A DNA stretch of 64,000 nucleotides from Streptomyces phaeochromogenes. GTDB lineage: Bacteria > Actinomycetota > Actinomycetes > Streptomycetales > Streptomycetaceae. The stretch is taken from the NCBI RefSeq assembly GCF_001418655.1, contig NZ_LIQZ01000087.1:62001-126000 (forward strand), written 5' to 3'. Below, piece by piece: positions 30,956-41,990 of the stretch (the first letter of the stretch is position 1; each line of letters starts with the position of its first letter). The translations under genes and the position numbers were made by a program. The notes beneath the pieces are model-generated. The model made no database searches. It saw nothing but the letters and a program-made list of their open reading frames with translations, and was not told the origin of the DNA.

Positions 30956-31247
30956 CGTGAGAGGGAGGGGACACCGGCTGTCCTGGGGAGGGTCGGTGCC
31001 CCCGTCCCTCGAGCGGCCCGGAAAGAACGCTTGGTCGGCCGGGGCCCATGTCTTCGCCCTCTTGTCGGAGGAGTGGCGAACCGTGAGAAGTCGCCGAAGT
31101 CCGGCGATGTCTCGACCCGATACGACGAAGGTCACAGTTATATATCGGACACTTCGCACTTCAATCTTCACACGAGGTGCACATGTTGGCTAAGTTGACG
31201 GACAGGACGCACGACTCCCTCCGGTGAACCTCGCCGGGTCGCGCGGC

Positions 31248-31400
31248 CTCCGCCGAATTCGGTGGCCCTCGTGGCGACCGGAACCGGGGACCCAACCGAA
31301 CTTTGGGGTGAATCGGCCCAACCGCCCGACAGGGCAAGGGCCGTAGGGCATACCTTCCGGATTCCTCGCCCGAACCCGACAGCTAACTCGGTAGGCGGAG
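31248..31400 (+). promoter_or_regulatory. Cyclic-di-AMP (ydaO/yuaA) riboswitch upstream of the NlpC/P60 gene
   Basis: The leader RNA shows the ydaO-class conserved blocks: ctccgccgaattc at the 5' end, ggggacccaaccgaactttggggtgaatc in the middle (crossing 31287-31314), gtagggcataccttccgg, cccgaacccgacagctaactcggtaggcggag at the 3' end. The closing helix pairs ctccgcc (31248-31254) with ggcggag (31394-31400). The class binds c-di-AMP and usually switches cell-wall hydrolase or osmolyte-transport genes off. The ribosome site aaggag begins six bases after the closing helix, so folding could affect translation as well as transcription. Confidence 0.9.
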
Positions 31401-31508
31401 CACGGAAGGAGTACGGCTCCCATCGCGCCGGAACGAACCCCGCGCCCCGGAGGCAGCAACCTCCCGGGTATACCCCGGCCCGCCCTCGCGACGGCGGCCG
31501 CCACCTCA

Positions 31509-33041
31509 GTGGACCTCTACTCCTCGGCCGGCGGTTCCTCGCCGGCGAGAGAGGACGACAAGCCGAGTCGCGAAGAGGTCCAGCAGCGGATCAGCAGCCT
31601 CTACGACCAAGCAGAGACCGTCAGCGGGAACTACAACGCGACCCGGGCGATGAGTTCGGGGCGCACGCGCGAGCGTGTGATGCCCGGATCCGACACCGGG
31701 CGTGGGCGCGCCGACACGGTTGCCGCCCCTGCTCCCGCTCTGAACGACCGCGCCAAGCAGTGGTTCGACGTGGGGCGTTCGCAACTGGGGCCCCTCATCC
31801 CCGCCGTGCTGCCGCCCGACAGGATGCCGGACCGCGACCAGGCCGCGACGCGGCCCAAGAGCCCCGGTGGCCGTTCGGGAGAACGGTCGCCCGACCGCTC
31901 GGGCGACCGCGCGCTGGAAGCGCCGAGCAAACCGCTCCTGGAGCTGACCGCCGGACCCGGCGCCGCGTCAACCGCCCGACCGGTGGCGGAGTTGACCGCA
32001 GGGCCCATCGCCGCGCTGCCCGCCGTGCCGCAGGCGCGCCAGGAGGCCACCGCGATCCTGCCCGCGATCGCCGCCGATCCGCGGCAGTCGCTGAAGACCT
32101 CCAAGCAGCGGAACCAGAGCAAGCTCGCGAAGGCCCGTGAACTGCTCTCCGCACACACTGCCCGGCGGAGCGCGCCGGTGGCGGCGATCGAGCCCCCGCC
32201 GGCGGAGACCGTCTGGGCCACCACCGAGGGGCAGGGCTACCGCCAGGCCGAGGCCGAATGGTGGCAGCCGCAGCAACAGTTCGAGCCGCAGCAGCAGTTG
32301 CAGCCACTGCAGCAGTCGCAGTCGGCCGGTTATTACGGCACACAAATGTCCGTCGACGCCCTGGGCGGCCCGGACCTGACGCTCGGCATGGGGCTGCCCG
32401 CTGCCCCGGCTCCGATTCCGACTCCGTCAATCGCTCCGGCTCCGGTACCGGCTCCTGCTCCTGTTCCGTCGATCGGCATGGACCTGCCCATGGGCCCGGA
32501 CCTCACGTTCGGTATGGCTCCGGCCATCGACGTCCGTACGCCGATGGGCACGGGCCTGCCCATCGGTTCGGACGGTGCCGCGAACCCGGGATACGGCGCA
32601 TCGAACCCCGGCTACGGCGCCGCGACCCCGGCATACAGCGGGGTGTCGACCCCGGGATACGCCGGATCGGCCCCCGGATACGGCGGAAAGGCGGCGACAG
32701 CCGTCGACTTCGCCCGTGGGCAGATCGGCAAGCCCTGTGTGTGGGGAGCGATGGGGCCGGGGTCGTACGACTGCTCCAGCCTCACGCAGGCGGCGTGGAA
32801 GGCGGCGGGGGTCGCACTCCCGCGTACCGTGAACGATCAGGCGGTCGCCGGCATGGCGGTCCCCCTCTCCGACATCCGTCTCGGCGACCTGGTCCTCTTC
32901 CACGGGCACGTCGGCCATGTCGGCATCTACAGCGGCAACGGCATGATGGTCCACGCGCCGAGCCCGGGGGCGGCCATCCGCGAGGAGTCGATCCACTGGG
33001 CCGGCGAGTCGGCGATCCACAGCGTGATCCGGCCTGCCTGA
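31509..33041 (+). CDS. NlpC/P60 cell-wall endopeptidase with long low-complexity linker (riboswitch controlled)
   Basis: A secreted-type peptidoglycan hydrolase, 510 residues from GTG 31509. An N-terminal helical region (KPSREEVQQRISSLYDQAETVSGNYN) precedes a long Ala/Pro/Gln-rich linker with a PQQQ tract and GY-rich repeats (NPGYGASNPGYGAATP). The C-terminal NlpC/P60 domain has the catalytic cysteine Cys422 in YDCSSLTQ and a histidine near 470 in GHVGIYSGNG. It should cut D-Glu-diaminopimelate-type stem bonds. The start is a problem: family N-termini and the ribosome site (31406-31411) point to 31422, where the codon is ATC, and the frame upstream of 31509 has no ATG, GTG, TTG or CTG. From 31509 there is no full signal peptide. 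A strong hairpin follows. Confidence 0.85.
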   Translation: MDLYSSAGGSSPAREDDKPSREEVQQRISSLYDQAETVSGNYNATRAMSSGRTRERVMPGSDTGRGRADTVAAPAPALNDRAKQWFDVGRSQLGPLIPAVLPPDRMPDRDQAATRPKSPGGRSGERSPDRSGDRALEAPSKPLLELTAGPGAASTARPVAELTAGPIAALPAVPQARQEATAILPAIAADPRQSLKTSKQRNQSKLAKARELLSAHTARRSAPVAAIEPPPAETVWATTEGQGYRQAEAEWWQPQQQFEPQQQLQPLQQSQSAGYYGTQMSVDALGGPDLTLGMGLPAAPAPIPTPSIAPAPVPAPAPVPSIGMDLPMGPDLTFGMAPAIDVRTPMGTGLPIGSDGAANPGYGASNPGYGAATPAYSGVSTPGYAGSAPGYGGKAATAVDFARGQIGKPCVWGAMGPGSYDCSSLTQAAWKAAGVALPRTVNDQAVAGMAVPLSDIRLGDLVLFHGHVGHVGIYSGNGMMVHAPSPGAAIREESIHWAGESAIHSVIRPA

Positions 33042-34187: not shown

Positions 34188-37100
34188 TCACGGCCCCGAA
34201 GTGGTCGACGACGCGGTGGCTGGCACCCACGGCCCCAGGGCCCGGCGGGCGCGCTCGACGCCTGCATGCGCTCGTGCCAGCTGGTCGTGTTCACCGGTGA
34301 CGGACGCGACCGTCGCCGCGGTGGAGTGGTGGTCGAGCGCCTCGTCGTGACGGCCGCTGCCGTACAGCGCCTCGGCGAGGCCGTTGAGCGCCGACGCCTC
34401 GCCGTAGCCCTCACCGTTCTCACGGAACAGTTCGAGGGCCCGCCGCTGACAGGCGACGGCGGCCACGAACTCGCCCTGCCCCAGCCGGATTTCGCCGAGC
34501 CCGGACAGCGCGTACGCCTCTCCGCCGTGGTGCCCCAACTGCCGGAAGAGCGTGAGGGCTTGCTCCTGGCACTCGGCCGCGGACTCCGAACGGCCCAGCC
34601 TCAGAAGGGCGTTGCCGAGGTGGGAGAGGGTGCGGGCGCGGCCGATCCGGTCACCGGTCAGATCGTGCAGGGCGAGGGCGTGCCGTTGGTGGTCGGCCGC
34701 CTGCCCGTACTCGCCCAGCCGCAGACAGACATTGCCGAGGTTCGTGAGGGTGCGCGCCTGGCCCACCTGGTCGCCGGTCTCCCGGTAGAGGGCGAGGGCC
34801 TGTTGATGGTCGTGCGCGGCGTCGCGGAGGCTGCCCAGCCGCCAGTGGACGTTGCCGAGGTTGGACAGGGTTCTGGCGCGCCCCGCCCGGTCGCCCGTCC
34901 GGCGGTGCAGTTCGAGGGCCCGTACGAGATGGTCCTCGGCCGATCCCGCGTCGGCGAGCCGCCAGTGGACGACCCCGAGGTTGGTCAGCGCGTGGGCCTG
35001 TCCGCCCAGGTCGCCGATCGTCTCGGCGGCCCGCAGGGCGTGGCGGTGGATCTCCAGCGCCTCGGTGTGGTGACCGGAGTCGAGGTGGCGGAACAGGAGG
35101 GCCGCCAGGCGGACGGCGTGCCGGGGGCTGCCGCGGTCCGCGGCCACCGCGCAGACGGCGGCCAGTGTCGGCCGCTCGGCGTCCAGCCAGGCCCGTGCCA
35201 CGTCCGCGTCGCCGAGGGCCGGCGAGACATGGACGGTGGCCGCGACCGCGGGCCTGTGGTGCCGCTCGGCCGGGTAGAGCGTGTCCATGGCCGCCGCGGC
35301 CGTGCCGAGGTAGTGGTCGAAGAGACGGACCAGCGCGGCCTGCCGTTCGGCCTCGGAGTCATGCGTACGGGTCAGGCGGTACGCGTAGGCACGCAGCAGG
35401 TCGTGCGTGCCGAACCGGCCCGGCCGGGCGGGCTGAAGGAGGTGGGCACGGGCCAGCAACGCCAGGGTCCCGGCGGCGTGGACCGGACCCTCACCGGGGC
35501 CCGCGGGCTCATCGCCTGGTACGGCGTCTGGCATGTGGGCCAGCACGTGCTCTGGTGTGTGGGCCGACGTCCGACCCGGCATGTGCTCTGGTGTGTGGGC
35601 CGGTGTCCGTCCCGGCCCGCGCTCCGGCATGTGAGCCGGTGTCCGGCCCGGCACCTGTACCCGCTCCGGCGTGTGGCGTGGCACGCTGCCCGGCACCTGG
35701 CCCGACGAGGCGCCAGGCACGTGCCCGGGTCTCTCGTCCCGCGCGGCGTCCGGCGCACGGGGCGGCCCTTCGCCCGGCGCATGGGTTGGCCCTTCGCTCG
35801 GCGCAGGGGTCGGCACATGGGTCGGCCCCTCGCCCGGCACCCGGACCGTCGCTTCGTCCGGCGTTTCGCCGATCAGCGCCGCGACCGCATGGGCGTCCGC
35901 CTCCGGTCCGGGGTGCAGGCTCAGCAGGCGGAAGGTGCGGGCGGCCGGGGCGGGGAGGCGCTCGTACGACCAGGAGAACACCGCCTCCACCGCCGCGCGC
36001 CGGTCGCCGCCCGCGTCCAGGAGATCGAGCCGCCGATGCTGGTCGGCCAGTTCCGCCACCAGGTCCGCCAGTCGCGACGACGGGTGGGCGACGGCGAGTT
36101 CGGCCGCGACCCGGAGCGCCAGCGGGAGACGCGCGCACTGTTCGGCCAGGGCGGCGGCAGGACCCGGCTCGGTGTCGACGCGCGTACCGACGAGTGCGCG
36201 CAGCAGGGCGACCGCGTCGGGCGGCGGGAGGGGGCCCAGACCGATACGGCGGGCGCCGTGCAGGGCCACCAGTCCCGCGAGGCTGTCCCGGCTGGTGACC
36301 ACGACCGAACAGGCCGGCGAGCCGGGAAGCAGCGGGCGGACCTGCTCCTCGGACAGGGCGTTGTCCAGGACCAACAGCATGCGCCGGTCGGCCAGTTCGG
36401 TCCGGAACCGGCTCGCGCGGTCGTCCACGTCGAGCGGGACCGCGTCACCGGGGACCCCGAGCACGGTGAGGAACCGAGTCAGGGCGTCGCCGGGAGGCAT
36501 GGGGCGGTCCGGGTCGTAGCCGCGCAGGTTGACGTAGAGCTGGCCGTCGGGGAACCGGTGCCGTGTGCGGTGCGCCCAGTGCACGGCCAGCGCGGTCTTC
36601 CCCACCCCGGCAGTGCCGGAGACGACCGACACGGCCCCGGCCGTCGGGCTGTCCGCCGCCGCGGCCAGCAGCCGGTCCAGTGCGGACAGTTCGGGGTCAC
36701 GGCCCGCGAAGTCGGGTACGTCCGCGGGGAGTTGCGCGGGTAATCGGTGCGCCGAAGGCGGGTACGGGGGTACGTGGGCGGGCACCTGCGCGGGCAACTC
36801 GCCAGGACCCTCGGCCGTGTTGCCGGCGGGAGCGTGCCCGGTCCCGCGAGCGGAGAGCCGGGTGCGGCGGCGCAGCAGGGCGGCATACGCCTCGGCCAGC
36901 GCGGGGCCGGGGTCGACGCCGAGTTCGTCGGCCAGCCGACGGCGGCTCCGCCGGTAGACGGCGACCGCCTGGTCGCGTCGACCGACGGCCTCGTACGCCC
37001 GGACGAGCCGGGCCTGGGCGTCCTCGTCCAGCGGCTGCGCGACCGCGGCCTCCTCCAGGACGGGCAGCGCGTCGGCGCTCCTGCCCGCCGCGATCATGGC

Positions 37101-37619
37101 CTCGCCGTACTGGGCGACCGCCCCGCGACGTTCCTCCGCCAGCGCGACGACCACCGGATGCGCGGAGAGGAAGGGCAGGTCCGCGAGGGGCGGTTGCTGC
37201 CACAGCCCGAGCGCGTCGGCGAGCAGTGCGGCGGCCCGCTCCTGGCCGCCGCCCCGCCCGTCCCGTCGTACGGTCACCGCCCCGGCGACCAGGTCCCTGA
37301 AGCGCAGCAGGTCGATGGCGTCGTACGGGACGCGCAGCGCGTAGCCGTCGCCGAGCCGGGGGAGCAGCGCACTTCGGGCGCGTGGTGGCCGGTCGGGCTC
37401 CAGCAGGTGGCGCAGGTGCTTGATGTGGGTCTGGACGACGTTCGACGCGGTCGCCGGCGGGTGCTCGCCCCACAGCGCGTCCGCGAGTCCGAAGAACGGC
37501 AGTTGCTGTCCACGGGACACGGCGAGCAGGGCGAGTACCGCGCGGCGCTGGGGCGAACCGAGGTCGAGGCGGGTGCCGTTCCGCCAGGCGCAGACCGGCC
37601 CGAGTACCTGAATGCGCAT
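34188..37619 (-). CDS. AfsR-type SARP regulator (DNA-binding, BTAD, NB-ARC, TPR) with a repetitive Pro/His-rich insert
   Basis: A 1143-residue AfsR-like regulator. Order: OmpR-type winged helix (1-95), BTAD (100-260), a Pro-rich linker, NB-ARC ATPase (P-loop GTAGVGKTA near 340; LLVLDNA; winged helix near 560), then six or more TPRs of the type ALTNLGVVHWRLADAGSAEDHLVRAL (840-1080). AfsR-type proteins activate secondary-metabolism genes in response to ATP/ADP state and phosphorylation. Between NB-ARC and TPR (about residues 590-712) sits a 120-residue insert rich in Pro, His, Gly and Glu, with 12-residue repeats such as PGRTPAHTPEHM, absent from typical members. ATG 37619 fits the family start (MRIQVLGPV). 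No clear target cluster is adjacent. Confidence 0.9.
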   Translation of the reverse strand: MRIQVLGPVCAWRNGTRLDLGSPQRRAVLALLAVSRGQQLPFFGLADALWGEHPPATASNVVQTHIKHLRHLLEPDRPPRARSALLPRLGDGYALRVPYDAIDLLRFRDLVAGAVTVRRDGRGGGQERAAALLADALGLWQQPPLADLPFLSAHPVVVALAEERRGAVAQYGEAMIAAGRSADALPVLEEAAVAQPLDEDAQARLVRAYEAVGRRDQAVAVYRRSRRRLADELGVDPGPALAEAYAALLRRRTRLSARGTGHAPAGNTAEGPGELPAQVPAHVPPYPPSAHRLPAQLPADVPDFAGRDPELSALDRLLAAAADSPTAGAVSVVSGTAGVGKTALAVHWAHRTRHRFPDGQLYVNLRGYDPDRPMPPGDALTRFLTVLGVPGDAVPLDVDDRASRFRTELADRRMLLVLDNALSEEQVRPLLPGSPACSVVVTSRDSLAGLVALHGARRIGLGPLPPPDAVALLRALVGTRVDTEPGPAAALAEQCARLPLALRVAAELAVAHPSSRLADLVAELADQHRRLDLLDAGGDRRAAVEAVFSWSYERLPAPAARTFRLLSLHPGPEADAHAVAALIGETPDEATVRVPGEGPTHVPTPAPSEGPTHAPGEGPPRAPDAARDERPGHVPGASSGQVPGSVPRHTPERVQVPGRTPAHMPERGPGRTPAHTPEHMPGRTSAHTPEHVLAHMPDAVPGDEPAGPGEGPVHAAGTLALLARAHLLQPARPGRFGTHDLLRAYAYRLTRTHDSEAERQAALVRLFDHYLGTAAAAMDTLYPAERHHRPAVAATVHVSPALGDADVARAWLDAERPTLAAVCAVAADRGSPRHAVRLAALLFRHLDSGHHTEALEIHRHALRAAETIGDLGGQAHALTNLGVVHWRLADAGSAEDHLVRALELHRRTGDRAGRARTLSNLGNVHWRLGSLRDAAHDHQQALALYRETGDQVGQARTLTNLGNVCLRLGEYGQAADHQRHALALHDLTGDRIGRARTLSHLGNALLRLGRSESAAECQEQALTLFRQLGHHGGEAYALSGLGEIRLGQGEFVAAVACQRRALELFRENGEGYGEASALNGLAEALYGSGRHDEALDHHSTAATVASVTGEHDQLARAHAGVERARRALGPWVPATASSTTSGP
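35525..35670. repeat. 36-base in-frame minisatellite inside the AfsR-like gene
   Basis: Three or four imperfect 36-base units encode PGRTPAHMPERG, PGRTPAHTPEHM, PGRTSAHTPEHV and a decayed neighbour. Because the unit is a multiple of three, copy number can change without breaking the frame. Related but looser Pro-rich repeats continue to about 35850 (EGPTHVP, EGPTHAP). Confidence 0.8.
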
Positions 37620-38593: not shown

Positions 38594-38644
38594 TCAGTAA
38601 GCGCTGGAGACACGCGACAAATCGATGTGCAGGCGCCTCGTCAA
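38594..38644 (-). CDS. Putative leader peptide (HIDLSRVSSA type) upstream of the GST-like gene
   Basis: A 16-residue frame, MTRRLHIDLSRVSSAY, reads from TTG 38644 to TGA 38594 with AGGA just upstream. It matches the short actinomycete leader peptides that carry RRHIDL-x-RV-x-SA-C and precede sulfur-related genes. The usual terminal cysteine is tyrosine here (TAC for TGC, one base). The GST-like gene starts 108 bases downstream. The frame is too short to prove coding statistically; the motif match is the evidence. Confidence 0.6.
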   Translation of the reverse strand: MTRRLHIDLSRVSSAY

Positions 38645-39094
38645 GCCGTTCCTGGACAATTCCCACCGGTCCTGCCGTCGGGGCTCGCGAGACGCGAGAC
38701 CACGCTTGCCCCGCCGCTCCGGCGGAACCCGGTCGTCACCCGGGGCACCCCGTCGCGGTGGAAGGGTTGCCTGCCAGCGGGCCGGGGCCGATGACCGCAC
38801 GAACGGGGAATCCCCCGCACGACGGGCGCTGGCAATCGTGACCGTCTCCGTCAGTGTTGATGCGCTCAGCGTGACCGTCAAGACGGCGTCTCAACAACTG
38901 GGCATCCGGCCGCCGGACCGGGTTCGCACCTCGTGATGGGAAGCCTCCCGACAAGAACTCCCGATGGCAGGAAGAAAAGGCACAGCCGTACTGTTGTGGT
39001 CGTTGACGACGAGGCGGTGCCCGATCGAGGGCCCGCGAACGCGAGGTCGGCCGGACCCCTGGTCCGCCGAGCCGGAAGGGCGGAGGTGACGCAC
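38645..39094. other. Intergenic stretch between two divergent leader peptides
   Basis: About 450 bases with no convincing gene. It must hold the divergent promoters for the two leader-peptide units. I see no operator palindrome that stands out, and no Streptomyces ORF here has family-like content. Codon-position GC looks irregular compared with the neighbouring genes. Confidence 0.5.
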
Positions 39095-39217
39095 GTGCCA
39101 GCGCGAACCGTGTCCCGCCGCAGCGTCCCGAAGGCCGCCCCGCTCCATCGCGTACGCCTCTACTCCCGGCCGCACATCGACCTGCTGCGCGTTGCCGGCG
39201 CGCTCTGTTGCTCCTGA
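39095..39217 (+). CDS. Putative cysteine-type leader peptide (HIDLLRVAGALCCS) upstream of the flavin monooxygenases
   Basis: A 40-residue frame from GTG 39095, with GGAGG at 39082-39086, ends SRPHIDLLRVAGALCCS then TGA. The HIDL-x-RV-x-x-A-L-C ending is the signature of actinomycete leader peptides found before sulfate, sulfonate and cysteine genes; the paired cysteine codons just before the stop are suited to sensing cysteinyl-tRNA. A GTG at 39110 would give 35 residues. Downstream, gccctc-cgat-gagggc (39238-39253) can fold just before the first monooxygenase gene, a possible attenuator stem. Confidence 0.7.
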   Translation: MPARTVSRRSVPKAAPLHRVRLYSRPHIDLLRVAGALCCS

Positions 39218-39292
39218 CCTGTATCCCACGCGGTCGCGCCCTCCGATGAGGGCCGGCCTTCTCGTACGGTCGATCAGGAAGGCACACCTCTC

Positions 39293-40558
39293 GTGTCCTC
39301 AGTACCTTCTGCCCTGCCCTCTTCCGCGCAGCTGCACCTAGCCGTGGCGCTCGACGGCGCCGGCTGGCACCCCGCCGCCTGGCGCGAACCGGTGGCCAGG
39401 CCCCGCGAACTGTTCACGGCCCAGTACTGGGCCGACCTCGTCGCCGAGGCCGAGCGCGGTCTCCTCGACTTCGTGACCTTCGAGGACGGACTCGGACTGC
39501 AGTCCTCGCACTTCATCGAGCCGGACGGGCGGACCGACCAGGTCCGCGGCCGGCTCGACGCCGTTCTCGTCGCCGCGCGCATCGCACCGCTGACCAGCCA
39601 CATAGGTCTGGTGCCGACGGTGGTGTCCACGCACACGGAGCCGTTCCACATCTCCAAGGCCATCGCCACTCTCGACTATGTGAGTTCCGGACGGGCGGGC
39701 CTGCGCGTGCAGTTGACGGCACGACAGAACGAGGCGGCGCACTTCGGCCGCCGTACGCTGCCCCGCCTGGACGCCTACGACAGCCCGGCCACCCAGGACG
39801 TGGTGACCGAACTCTTCGACGAGACGGCCGACTACGTCGAGGTCGTACGCAGACTCTGGGACAGCTGGGAGGACGACGCCGAGATCCGGGACGTGGCCAC
39901 CGGCCGCTTCGTCGACCGCGACAAGCTCCACTACATCGACTTCGAGGGCCCGCACTTCAGCGTCAAGGGCCCCTCCATCACCCCGCGTCCGCCCCAGGGC
40001 CAGCCCGTCGTCAGCGCCCTCGCACACCAGAGCGTCCCGTATCGGCTGGTGGCCCGCGCCGCCGACATCGGCTACGTCACCCCGCACGACACCGAGCAGG
40101 CCCGCGCGATCGTCGCCGAGATCCGCGCCGAACAGGCCCTCGCGGGCCGCGCCTACCAACCCCTGCACGTCTTCGGCGACCTGGTGGTCCTTCTCGACGA
40201 CGATCCGGCCGCCGCGTCCGCCCGCAAGGACCGCCTCGACGCCCTCGCGGGAGAGGCGTTCACCAGTGACGCCCGCGTCTTCACCGGCACCCCCGCCCAA
40301 CTTGCCGACCTGCTCCAAGAGTTGGCGTCGGCCGGGCTGAGCGGCTTCCGGCTGCGCCCCGCAGTCCTCGGCCACGACCTGCCGGCCATCACCCGGGGCC
40401 TGGTCCCCGAACTCCAGCGCCGGGGTGTCTTCCGCCGCGCCTACGAGGCCGACACCCTGCGCGGACTGCTCGGGCTCGCCCGCCCGGCCAACCGCTACGC
40501 CGCCAGCACCACCGGCGCTGCTGCCGCCGCCGACACCGCTGCCAACGCCACCGCCTGA
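39293..40558 (+). CDS. LLM-class flavin-dependent monooxygenase (NtaA/SnaA/DszA family), first of two
   Basis: A 421-residue bacterial-luciferase-fold protein of the NtaA/SnaA/SoxA group. Marks are FVTFEDGLGLQ, IGLVPTVVSTHTEPFHISKAIATLDYVSSGRAGL, and GPSITPRPPQGQPVVSALAH. Members use FMNH2 and oxygen to oxidise nitrilotriacetate, sulfones or sulfonates, with a separate flavin reductase. No reductase is adjacent. GTG 39293 is preceded by aggaagg. The leader peptide 76 bases upstream, and the paired monooxygenase 22 bases downstream, argue for organosulfur scavenging under sulfur limitation. The Ala/Thr-rich C-terminal tail is unconserved. Confidence 0.88.
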   Translation: MSSVPSALPSSAQLHLAVALDGAGWHPAAWREPVARPRELFTAQYWADLVAEAERGLLDFVTFEDGLGLQSSHFIEPDGRTDQVRGRLDAVLVAARIAPLTSHIGLVPTVVSTHTEPFHISKAIATLDYVSSGRAGLRVQLTARQNEAAHFGRRTLPRLDAYDSPATQDVVTELFDETADYVEVVRRLWDSWEDDAEIRDVATGRFVDRDKLHYIDFEGPHFSVKGPSITPRPPQGQPVVSALAHQSVPYRLVARAADIGYVTPHDTEQARAIVAEIRAEQALAGRAYQPLHVFGDLVVLLDDDPAAASARKDRLDALAGEAFTSDARVFTGTPAQLADLLQELASAGLSGFRLRPAVLGHDLPAITRGLVPELQRRGVFRRAYEADTLRGLLGLARPANRYAASTTGAAAAADTAANATA

Positions 40559-40580: not shown

Positions 40581-41990
40581 ATGAGCAAGCCGCTGAAGCA
40601 GATCCACCTGGCCGCCCATTTCCCCGGCGTCAACAACACCACCGTCTGGAGCGACCCGGAGGCCGGCAGCCACATCGAGTTCAGCTCCTTCGCGCACTTC
40701 GCGCGGACCGCCGAACGCGCCAAGTTCGACTTCCTGTTCCTCGCCGAAGGGCTGCGGCTGCGCGAACAGGGCGGAAAGATCTACGACTTGGACGTCGTCG
40801 GCCGACCCGACACCTTCACCGTCCTCACCGCGCTCGCCGCCGTCACCCAGCACCTCGGCCTGACCGGCACCATCAACTCCACCTTCAACGAGCCCTATGA
40901 AGTGGCCCGCCAGTTCGCCAGCCTCGACCACCTCTCGGACGGGCGCGCCGCCTGGAACGTCGTCACCTCCTGGGACGCCTTCACCGGCGAGAACTTCCGC
41001 CGCGGCGGCTTCCTCCCACAGGACGAGCGCTACTCCCGGGCCAAGGAGTTCCTGGCCACCGCGAACGAACTCTTCGATTCCTGGCAGGGCGACGAGATCG
41101 TCGCCGACCAGGACACCGGCACCTTCCTGCGCGACGCGAAGGCCGGCGCCTTCGTCCACCAGGGTCAACACTTCGACATCGAGGGGCAGTTCAACGTCCC
41201 GCGCTCCCCGCAGGGCCGCCCGGTGATCTTCCAGGCCGGCGACTCCGAGGAGGGCCGCGAGTTCGCCGCCGCCGGCGCCGACGCGATCTTCAGCCGCTAC
41301 GCCACCCTCAAGGACGGCCAGGAGTTCTACACGGACGTCAAGGGACGCCTGGCCCGCTACGGCCGTACGCCCGACCAGCTGCTGATCCTGCCCGCCGCGA
41401 CGTTCGTCCTCGGCGACACCGACGCCGAGGCGGAGGAACTGGCCCGCGAGGTGCGGCGCCAGCAGGTCAGCGGGGCGACCGCCATCAAGCACCTTGAGTT
41501 CGTCTGGAACCGCGACCTGTCCGCGTACGACCCCGAAGGGCCGCTGCCCGACATCGACCCCGACCTCGGCGAGCACACCATCGCGCGCGGCCGGGCCCAG
41601 GTCCGTATGTACCGCGACCCGCTGGCCACCGCCCGCGAGTGGCGGGAGCGGGCCTCCGCCAACAACTGGTCCATCCGCGACCTGGTCATCGAGACCGGCA
41701 ACCGCCAGGCCTTCGTCGGCTCCCCGGCCACGATCGCGGCCACCATCGACGACTTCGTCCAGGCCGACGCCAGCGACGGTTTCATCCTCGTCCCGCACAT
41801 CACCCCCGGCGGCCTCGACGCCTTCGCCGACACGGTGGTCCCGCTGCTCCAGGAGCGCGGTGTGTTCCGTACGGAGTACGAGGGCACGACCCTGCGCGAC
41901 CACCTGGGCCTGGCCCATCCCGATGCCCGTACGAATGCCGATGCCGGTGGCGCCGACCTCGGTAAGCGGGGTGAGCGGGTGGCCTCGTGA
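40581..41990 (+). CDS. LLM-class flavin-dependent monooxygenase (NtaA/SnaA/DszA family), second of two
   Basis: A 469-residue member of the same family as its neighbour but closer to NtaA/DszA. Marks: LAAHFPGVNNTTVW, AKFDFLFLAEGLRLRE, ITGTINSTFNEPYEVARQFASLDHLSDGRAAWNVVTSW near residue 100-140, RSPQGRPVIFQAGDSEEGREFAAAGADAIF, and the late GFILVPHITPGGLDAF. It should be an FMNH2-dependent oxygenase acting on a sulfone, sulfonate or aminocarboxylate. It starts 22 bases after the first gene, so both are one transcript behind the leader peptide. Confidence 0.9.
   Translation: MSKPLKQIHLAAHFPGVNNTTVWSDPEAGSHIEFSSFAHFARTAERAKFDFLFLAEGLRLREQGGKIYDLDVVGRPDTFTVLTALAAVTQHLGLTGTINSTFNEPYEVARQFASLDHLSDGRAAWNVVTSWDAFTGENFRRGGFLPQDERYSRAKEFLATANELFDSWQGDEIVADQDTGTFLRDAKAGAFVHQGQHFDIEGQFNVPRSPQGRPVIFQAGDSEEGREFAAAGADAIFSRYATLKDGQEFYTDVKGRLARYGRTPDQLLILPAATFVLGDTDAEAEELAREVRRQQVSGATAIKHLEFVWNRDLSAYDPEGPLPDIDPDLGEHTIARGRAQVRMYRDPLATAREWRERASANNWSIRDLVIETGNRQAFVGSPATIAATIDDFVQADASDGFILVPHITPGGLDAFADTVVPLLQERGVFRTEYEGTTLRDHLGLAHPDARTNADAGGADLGKRGERVAS

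Follow-up and report, generated by a model that had tools for sequence, protein, structure and literature searches.

In this region of Streptomyces phaeochromogenes we somewhat favour the reading of a divergent sulfur control region, in which two different sensors work on one family of leader peptides. The window (the whole 64 000-nt stretch analysed, positions 62 001 to 126 000 of contig NZ_LIQZ01000087.1) contains two divergent gene units, each headed by a short ORF with an HxDLxRV peptide at its end (Table 1); the gap from leader stop to gene is 107 nt for the GST-like gene and 75 nt for LLM1. The best reading of the plus unit is probably Cys-responsive translational attenuation, and the likely input of the minus unit is SAM, through a SAM-IV riboswitch that the first-pass annotation missed. 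That annotation had proposed a sulfur-responsive unit, which is very likely right, given the genome-wide context of the leaders and the presence of a cystine-type transporter and of SAM-IV in the corresponding cluster of relatives. A single Cys-tRNA mechanism shared by both arms is, however, unsupported, because the minus leader has no Cys codon and lies downstream of SAM-IV.

Both leaders score above the curated cut-off (27 bits) of the NCBIfam model NF042934 (putative leader peptide), so that the divergent pair described earlier stands; the minus leader reaches 27.2 bits in the genome search, with neighbouring sequence included. Whole-genome E-values of 6.2e-8 for the plus leader and 9.5e-5 for the minus leader show that these matches are not due to chance. 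Eleven places in the window's own genome pass the cut-off, and 8 of the 9 that lie beyond the window sit upstream of sulfur genes, namely those for a sulfatase, a cysteine dioxygenase, an SsuA-type binding protein, a MoaD-like protein with cysteine synthase, an SsuC-like permease, SfnG, a sulfite dehydrogenase-like enzyme and a rhodanese/3-mercaptopyruvate sulfurtransferase-like enzyme. Behind the ninth (L012) lies a nitrite/sulfite reductase gene whose best model is a nitrite reductase, below its cut-off, so that it could be either. These downstream genes were called by a simple script and assigned to families by profile, several of them under the equivalog cut-offs. The top site below the NF042934 cut-off (L016, 20.9 bits) is upstream of a sugar-type binding protein gene. 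The earlier assignment to a sulfur-leader family of actinomycetes is thus borne out by the model matches and by the genes behind the further leaders of the genome and, as judged from sequence, both leader peptides are real.

Table 1. Features of the two divergent units, in window coordinates
Feature	Position	Strand	Basis
GST-C-like gene, 241 aa	37761..38486	-	PF13410 at its cut-off, 24.9 bits; homologues score higher
Minus leader peptide (TTG start, 21 codons, Cys-less, SSAY end)	38594..38659	-	NF042934 29.0 bits
Candidate ribosome-binding site GGUGGG of minus leader	38662..38667	-	position in alignment
Hairpin directly 3' of aptamer, candidate switching helix	38682..38701	-	105/105 cells paired in 15 sequences
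SAM-IV aptamer, 5' part of GST-gene leader	38697..38843	-	RF00634 70.8 bits (gathering 38), whole model 1-116
SigR-like promoter candidate GGAAG-N18-GTTG	38970..38996	+	motif and relatives
Plus leader peptide, 40 codons, ends RPHIDLLRVAGALCCS	39095..39217	+	NF042934 36.3 bits; found in relatives
Cys codons UGU UGC	39206..39211	+	first is UGU in 28/28 loci
Anti-SD UCCUGA (last Ser codon and stop), pairs with 39274-39279	39212..39217	+	conservation; minimum-energy fold
Hairpin between leader stop and ribosome-binding site	39232..39258	+	inside longer anti-SD:SD stem
LLM1 ribosome-binding site UCAGGAAGG (contains UCAGGA)	39274..39282	+	alignment, sequence
LLM1, NtaA/DmoA-like flavin monooxygenase	39293..40558	+	TIGR03860 263.8 bits (below cut-off 279.7); PF00296
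LLM2, NtaA/DmoA-family monooxygenase	40581..41990	+	TIGR03860 426 bits (cut-off 279.7), scored on a frame scanned from 40425, gene start then set at 40581

The minus leader reads LSRNGLTRRLHIDLSRVSSAY, with the first codon taken as Met. We have moved its start from the TTG of the first-pass annotation to a probable position five codons further upstream, at 38659, because among 15 aligned SSAY sequences a start codon occupies that place in every one (ATG in 10, TTG in 4 including the window, CTG in L151), and the originally chosen TTG is CTG or CTC in four. A CCC adjacent to the candidate ribosome-binding site could mask it, the pairs being kept in 12–14 of the 15 sequences depending on register, which comes easily in G+C-rich sequence. 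The earlier remark that Tyr here replaces the usual Cys holds in substance, since GST leaders are mostly of the CSA type; ending in SSAY, the minus leader offers no Cys codon, and so cannot sense Cys-tRNA.

The minus leader starts 37 nt behind the SAM-IV aptamer. We find SAM-IV in all 16 distinct SSAY loci (the window, L028–L033, L036, L065, L069, L138, L140, L142, L148, L151 and L152), and the distance from aptamer to leader start is 35–37 nt in 15 of these and 45 nt in L151; the SSAH locus L165 has SAM-IV too. Since these loci are related, the association may be close to one evolutionary event rather than 16. The hairpin directly behind the aptamer has only one pair with changes on both sides and is no more stable than shuffles, and we do not claim it as a proven switch. 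Downstream of the aptamer, the conserved predicted ORF offers the first start site, as would be expected of a riboswitch-controlled uORF. SAM bound to SAM-IV would lower translation of the SSAY leader, in a translational OFF switch acting on the uORF, and translation of the GST-like gene would fall too, by coupling or re-initiation. Folding energy of the minus arm is ordinary (z −0.74), and across 60 loci we find no part of the leader in consistent pairing with the ribosome-binding site of GST, so that the pairing of a translational attenuator is not seen on this arm. An anti-SD pairing in the GST leader (UCUCCAG:CUGGAGA) picked out by eye was dropped, being the best window in 1 of 8 scanned SSAY loci (L032) with no common site across the 60 loci.

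The plus leader (VPARTVSRRSVPKAAPLHRVRLYSRPHIDLLRVAGALCCS) runs from GTG 39095 to TGA 39217; GGAGGTGA stands before its start, and in relatives the start codon here is ATG or GTG. The 40-residue peptide with two terminal Cys codons described by the first-pass annotation is present, and the codons stand near the C-terminus, where a Cys-responsive attenuator would have them. By a single regular expression, 16 of the 19 nearest Streptomyces loci (L057–L075) and 4 of 61 more distant ones (L076–L136) have the leader upstream of the LLM gene. For 28 distinct loci, a script could place both an LLM1 start and an AGGA-type ribosome-binding site. All 28 have UGU as the conserved Cys codon and UGA as the stop, and in 27 the stop follows CC; the search pattern had required LC, not the codon. 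At the ALC position, UGU is also the Cys codon in 16 of 16 leaders of an ABC-transporter unit described below, and the six Cys-bearing GST-type leaders compared have UGC. In L060 a degenerate leader, perhaps a decaying copy, lies directly upstream of LLM1 (...HSRPHRDLQRLACALRCS in one frame).

The end of the plus leader is complementary to the LLM1 ribosome-binding site, and in the window's minimum-energy fold the stem 39212–39217:39274–39279 encloses the hairpin that had been noted after the leader, which does exist. The duplex of leader end and SD has an energy of −12.36 kcal/mol with its own partner as compared to −11.80 kcal/mol with swapped partners (162 of 5000 permutations reach the former value), and shuffled arms give a mean of −8.9 and a lowest value, in 50, of −10.45 kcal/mol. 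RNAalifold recovers the pairs as nearly invariant, so that covariation gives little support, and the sequences are related; folding energy of the arm is ordinary (z 0.04). A conserved pairing over the LLM1 ribosome-binding site that overlaps the leader is the arrangement of a translational attenuator, for which these mostly invariant pairs and the ordinary energy give moderate support, and a Cys-codon attenuator on the plus arm is plausible. Transcription would start at the SigR-like promoter, and ribosomes would translate the 40-codon leader. With Cys-tRNA scarce, a ribosome would stall on UGU and cover UCCUGA (a footprint of ribosomal size, with UGU in the A site, would extend over it), which would free the LLM1 ribosome-binding site and allow the monooxygenases to be made. 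With ample Cys, the leader would be completed and UCCUGA would re-pair with UCAGGA.

We had considered a decayed SAM-IV upstream of the plus leader, and rejected it when an Rfam search at E-values up to 5 returned none on the plus strand between 38400 and 39400; the alignment of this region revealed instead a conserved GGAA...GTTG block, our promoter candidate. The pattern GGAAN-N18-GTT occurs within 350 nt upstream in 25 of 34 LLM leaders, as compared to 0/34 for the reversed motif, 0/31 inside LLM genes, 0/34 antisense, and a mean of 0.17 (maximum 2) in mononucleotide shuffles; it is absent from the 500 nt upstream of 60 GST leaders. The SigR motif is given as GGAAT-N18-GTT in the accessible parts of two papers (PMC2375139; also PMC5005934), and the window site agrees with it in spacing and in GTT, the fifth −35 base being G, not T. 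A SigR-like or other ECF promoter ahead of the plus leader is therefore likely on motif evidence and, if SigR-like, would add thiol stress as a third input.

Among 150 genomes, 71 have a GST homologue; we tabulated a single locus for each of 70 of them, G084 having been read only as L206. A regular expression finds a leader upstream of the GST-like gene in 60 of the 70 loci, with SAM-IV upstream on the same strand in 12 of the 60. Eight of these 12 end in SSAY and four keep Cys (L034, L035, L037 and L040). In seven of the 48 leaders that lack SAM-IV, no Cys follows the motif (L038, L209, L213, L219, L231, L234 and L237; that of L219 has a Cys before it), and L149 has a Cys-less SSSY leader and no SAM-IV. 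We therefore reject strict coupling of Cys loss to SAM-IV, given these Cys-less leaders and the four SAM-IV leaders with Cys. The majority of GST leaders are thus of the Cys type, and that of the window falls in the group with SAM-IV and no Cys.

Besides an amino-acid ABC transporter, the cluster in relatives comprises up to four LLM monooxygenases and a GNAT acetyltransferase; cystine-type models, below cut-off, are among the best matches of the transporter's ATPase and binding protein. As seen in L201, L206 and L197 (cystine-type ABC transporter, GNAT and LLM monooxygenases), this cluster resembles the operons of Bacillus for salvage of S-substituted cysteine; of its genes the window has only LLM1 and LLM2, beside GST. 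The ABC transporter has its own SAM-IV, followed 26–33 nt on by an ORF with the HxDL-like sequence DLLRVxSALC (16/16 loci, with UGU at ALC in each); L050, outside this set of 16, also has such a leader. Five of these ABC-unit leaders were compared to NF042934: three score below its cut-off (18.8, 15.6 and 17.9 bits) and two have no match. An apparent sensor swap at L030/G040, with SAM-IV replacing the LLM leader, was discarded, that SAM-IV belonging to the ABC-transporter gene and the LLM leader lying further on (L197, 11808). In L069, a SAM-IV of 105.5 bits stands 45 nt before the LLM1 Cys leader, and L143, seemingly the same locus, also has SAM-IV before this leader. A rough regular-expression census of the fetched loci, which missed the L069 core, found 78 SAM-IV-like cores. 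An HxDL-like leader comes behind 41 of them, a mini-ORF behind 32, and neither behind 5; these last are L216, where a leader is in fact present, L063, which is truncated at the locus end, L061, which is not SAM-IV by Rfam, L077 and L135.

We tentatively propose, with somewhat less than even confidence, that SAM-IV in Streptomyces acts by gating a uORF and is employed by sulfur genes in series with a Cys-sensing leader, SAM deciding whether the leader is translated and Cys-tRNA how its translation ends. The full two-signal form would then be represented by the ABC unit, by the four Cys-bearing GST leaders behind SAM-IV, and by the LLM1 leader of L069, and the window would hold its two halves pulled apart on two strands, one SAM-only and the other Cys-only. 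If true, this would be a natural RNA device that reads two sulfur metabolites in one transcript, and the natural variants without either half would be ready-made controls.

A second frequent SAM-IV site of Streptomyces (G000:C184:13478-13498, L167–L196) has behind it a G-rich SD-like stretch and then a six-codon ORF, GTGAGCAAGCGAATGCGNTAG (MSKRMR). This ORF is exact in 24 of 30 loci and is found somewhere in 101 of the 150 genomes; five of six variants keep RMR and the stop, and one has RMC. It is possibly another SAM-IV-gated uORF.

The plus arm could alternatively be a classical transcription attenuator, with the hairpin after the leader as its terminator. The hairpin is there, but the sequence has no U-run behind it, so that it is not a recognisable intrinsic terminator. 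Moreover, among relatives the complementarity of leader end and SD persists whereas the hairpin segment varies and is largely missing in L231 and L240, and we consider a terminator here quite unlikely. On the minus arm, SAM-IV might act directly on the GST gene (or by Rho), the SSAY leader being a remnant. Such an action would agree with the loss of Cys from the leader, with our finding no anti-SD for GST, and with the normal action of riboswitches on the next gene; yet 12 of the 12 loci with SAM-IV upstream of GST in the 70-locus table keep an intact leader, and the start site that comes first after the aptamer is that of the leader, not of GST, an order shared with the ABC unit. We thus regard direct action as improbable, and prefer a SAM-gated leader for the minus arm as we prefer a Cys-responsive translational attenuator for the plus arm.

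Two further alternatives give the peptide itself a function, and bear on selection in the leaders. Within the motifs, pN/pS is 0.18 (26 plus sequences) and 0.07 (15 minus sequences), values that are biased low since the sequences were picked by motif. In the five pattern-free codons before the motif, pN/pS is 0.35 for 59 GST leaders, compared to 1.05 for a control stretch 30 nt further upstream, and 1.08 for 16 LLM leaders, indicating no protein-level selection on these codons in the latter. All 59 GST leaders have the Ile and Leu of HIDL, with synonymous change, although the first pattern allowed other residues. Constraints on the RNA exist too, since some codons do not vary even synonymously (plus leader, CTC TGT; minus leader, TCC AGC and CAC ATC). 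HxDLxRV might be a nascent-chain arrest peptide that pauses the ribosome on a sulfur signal, with Cys as one of several final residues. The constraint before the motif in GST leaders and the invariant Ile and Leu go beyond the needs of a Cys-codon counter, and the minus leader and the seven Cys-less GST leaders without SAM-IV keep the motif with no Cys after it. LLM leaders speak against arrest, however, in having an invariant Cys (28/28, though the pattern asked for LC) and no constraint just before the motif, and overall we find arrest rather unlikely. That the leaders encode small proteins acting in trans would also fit the protein-level constraint in GST leaders, and trans-acting leader peptides are known (peTrpL, in the accessible part of its description); but the leaders examined precede sulfur-related genes at short distance, and the C-terminus varies from one gene family to another, which makes this highly improbable. 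Why HxDLxRV is conserved may be approached directly through the lineage that has no Cys codon at all and still keeps the peptide.

Polycysteine leader peptides of mycobacteria were reportedly described by Canestrari in 2020. In the accessible text of the papers on such systems, Cys-rich leaders ahead of mycobacterial sulfur genes are proposed (PMC4633059), and Cys-directed attenuation of mycobacterial cysteine genes is called translational (PMC13236596), a case that the translational attenuation proposed for the plus arm would fit. So far as these texts describe them, the mycobacterial leaders resemble ours in being short, in carrying Cys codons at the C-terminus, in preceding sulfur genes, and in the Cys-directed attenuation that we propose for the plus arm; unlike them, the plus leader has an SD instead of being leaderless and carries 1–2 Cys codons after HxDLxRV, and the minus leader is Cys-less and behind SAM-IV. 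Riboswitches acting on uORFs are likewise described, again in the accessible portions, for Mycobacterium tuberculosis. The B12 riboswitch of ppe2 has a uORF start site as its first target, and the downstream gene requires the uORF (PMC11260477); the order of riboswitch and then short uORF as first start site is as here, whereas ligand, genus and peptide are different and the ppe2 uORF overlaps the gene start in place of a gap like that before the GST-like gene. The Mbox riboswitch of pe20 controls a conserved small uORF via a translational platform (PMC12810186), but it is a Mg2+ sensor, and its uORF is not a sulfur leader in the text available. Eight leader peptides are tabulated for S. lividans in the accessible part of another paper, none of these eight of the HxDL type (PMC8079986).

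Our literature search, which took in few subscription papers and no bioRxiv preprints, returned no publication on SAM-IV with an HxDL leader or on Streptomyces Cys leaders. The full-length RF00634 match of the window is thus followed by a kind of leader unreported behind this aptamer in the literature found; riboswitch-gated uORFs and Cys leaders are already known from mycobacteria.

Two other features of the window lie on the far side of the GST gene. A gene for a large BTAD/NB-ARC/TPR regulator (34188-37619) adjoins it, and is present in L198 too. Further along, a c-di-AMP riboswitch (RF00379, 71.5 bits, 31241-31413) stands upstream of a large ORF (31509-33041); according to the accessible part of PMC8079986, c-di-AMP riboswitches are already known from Streptomyces.
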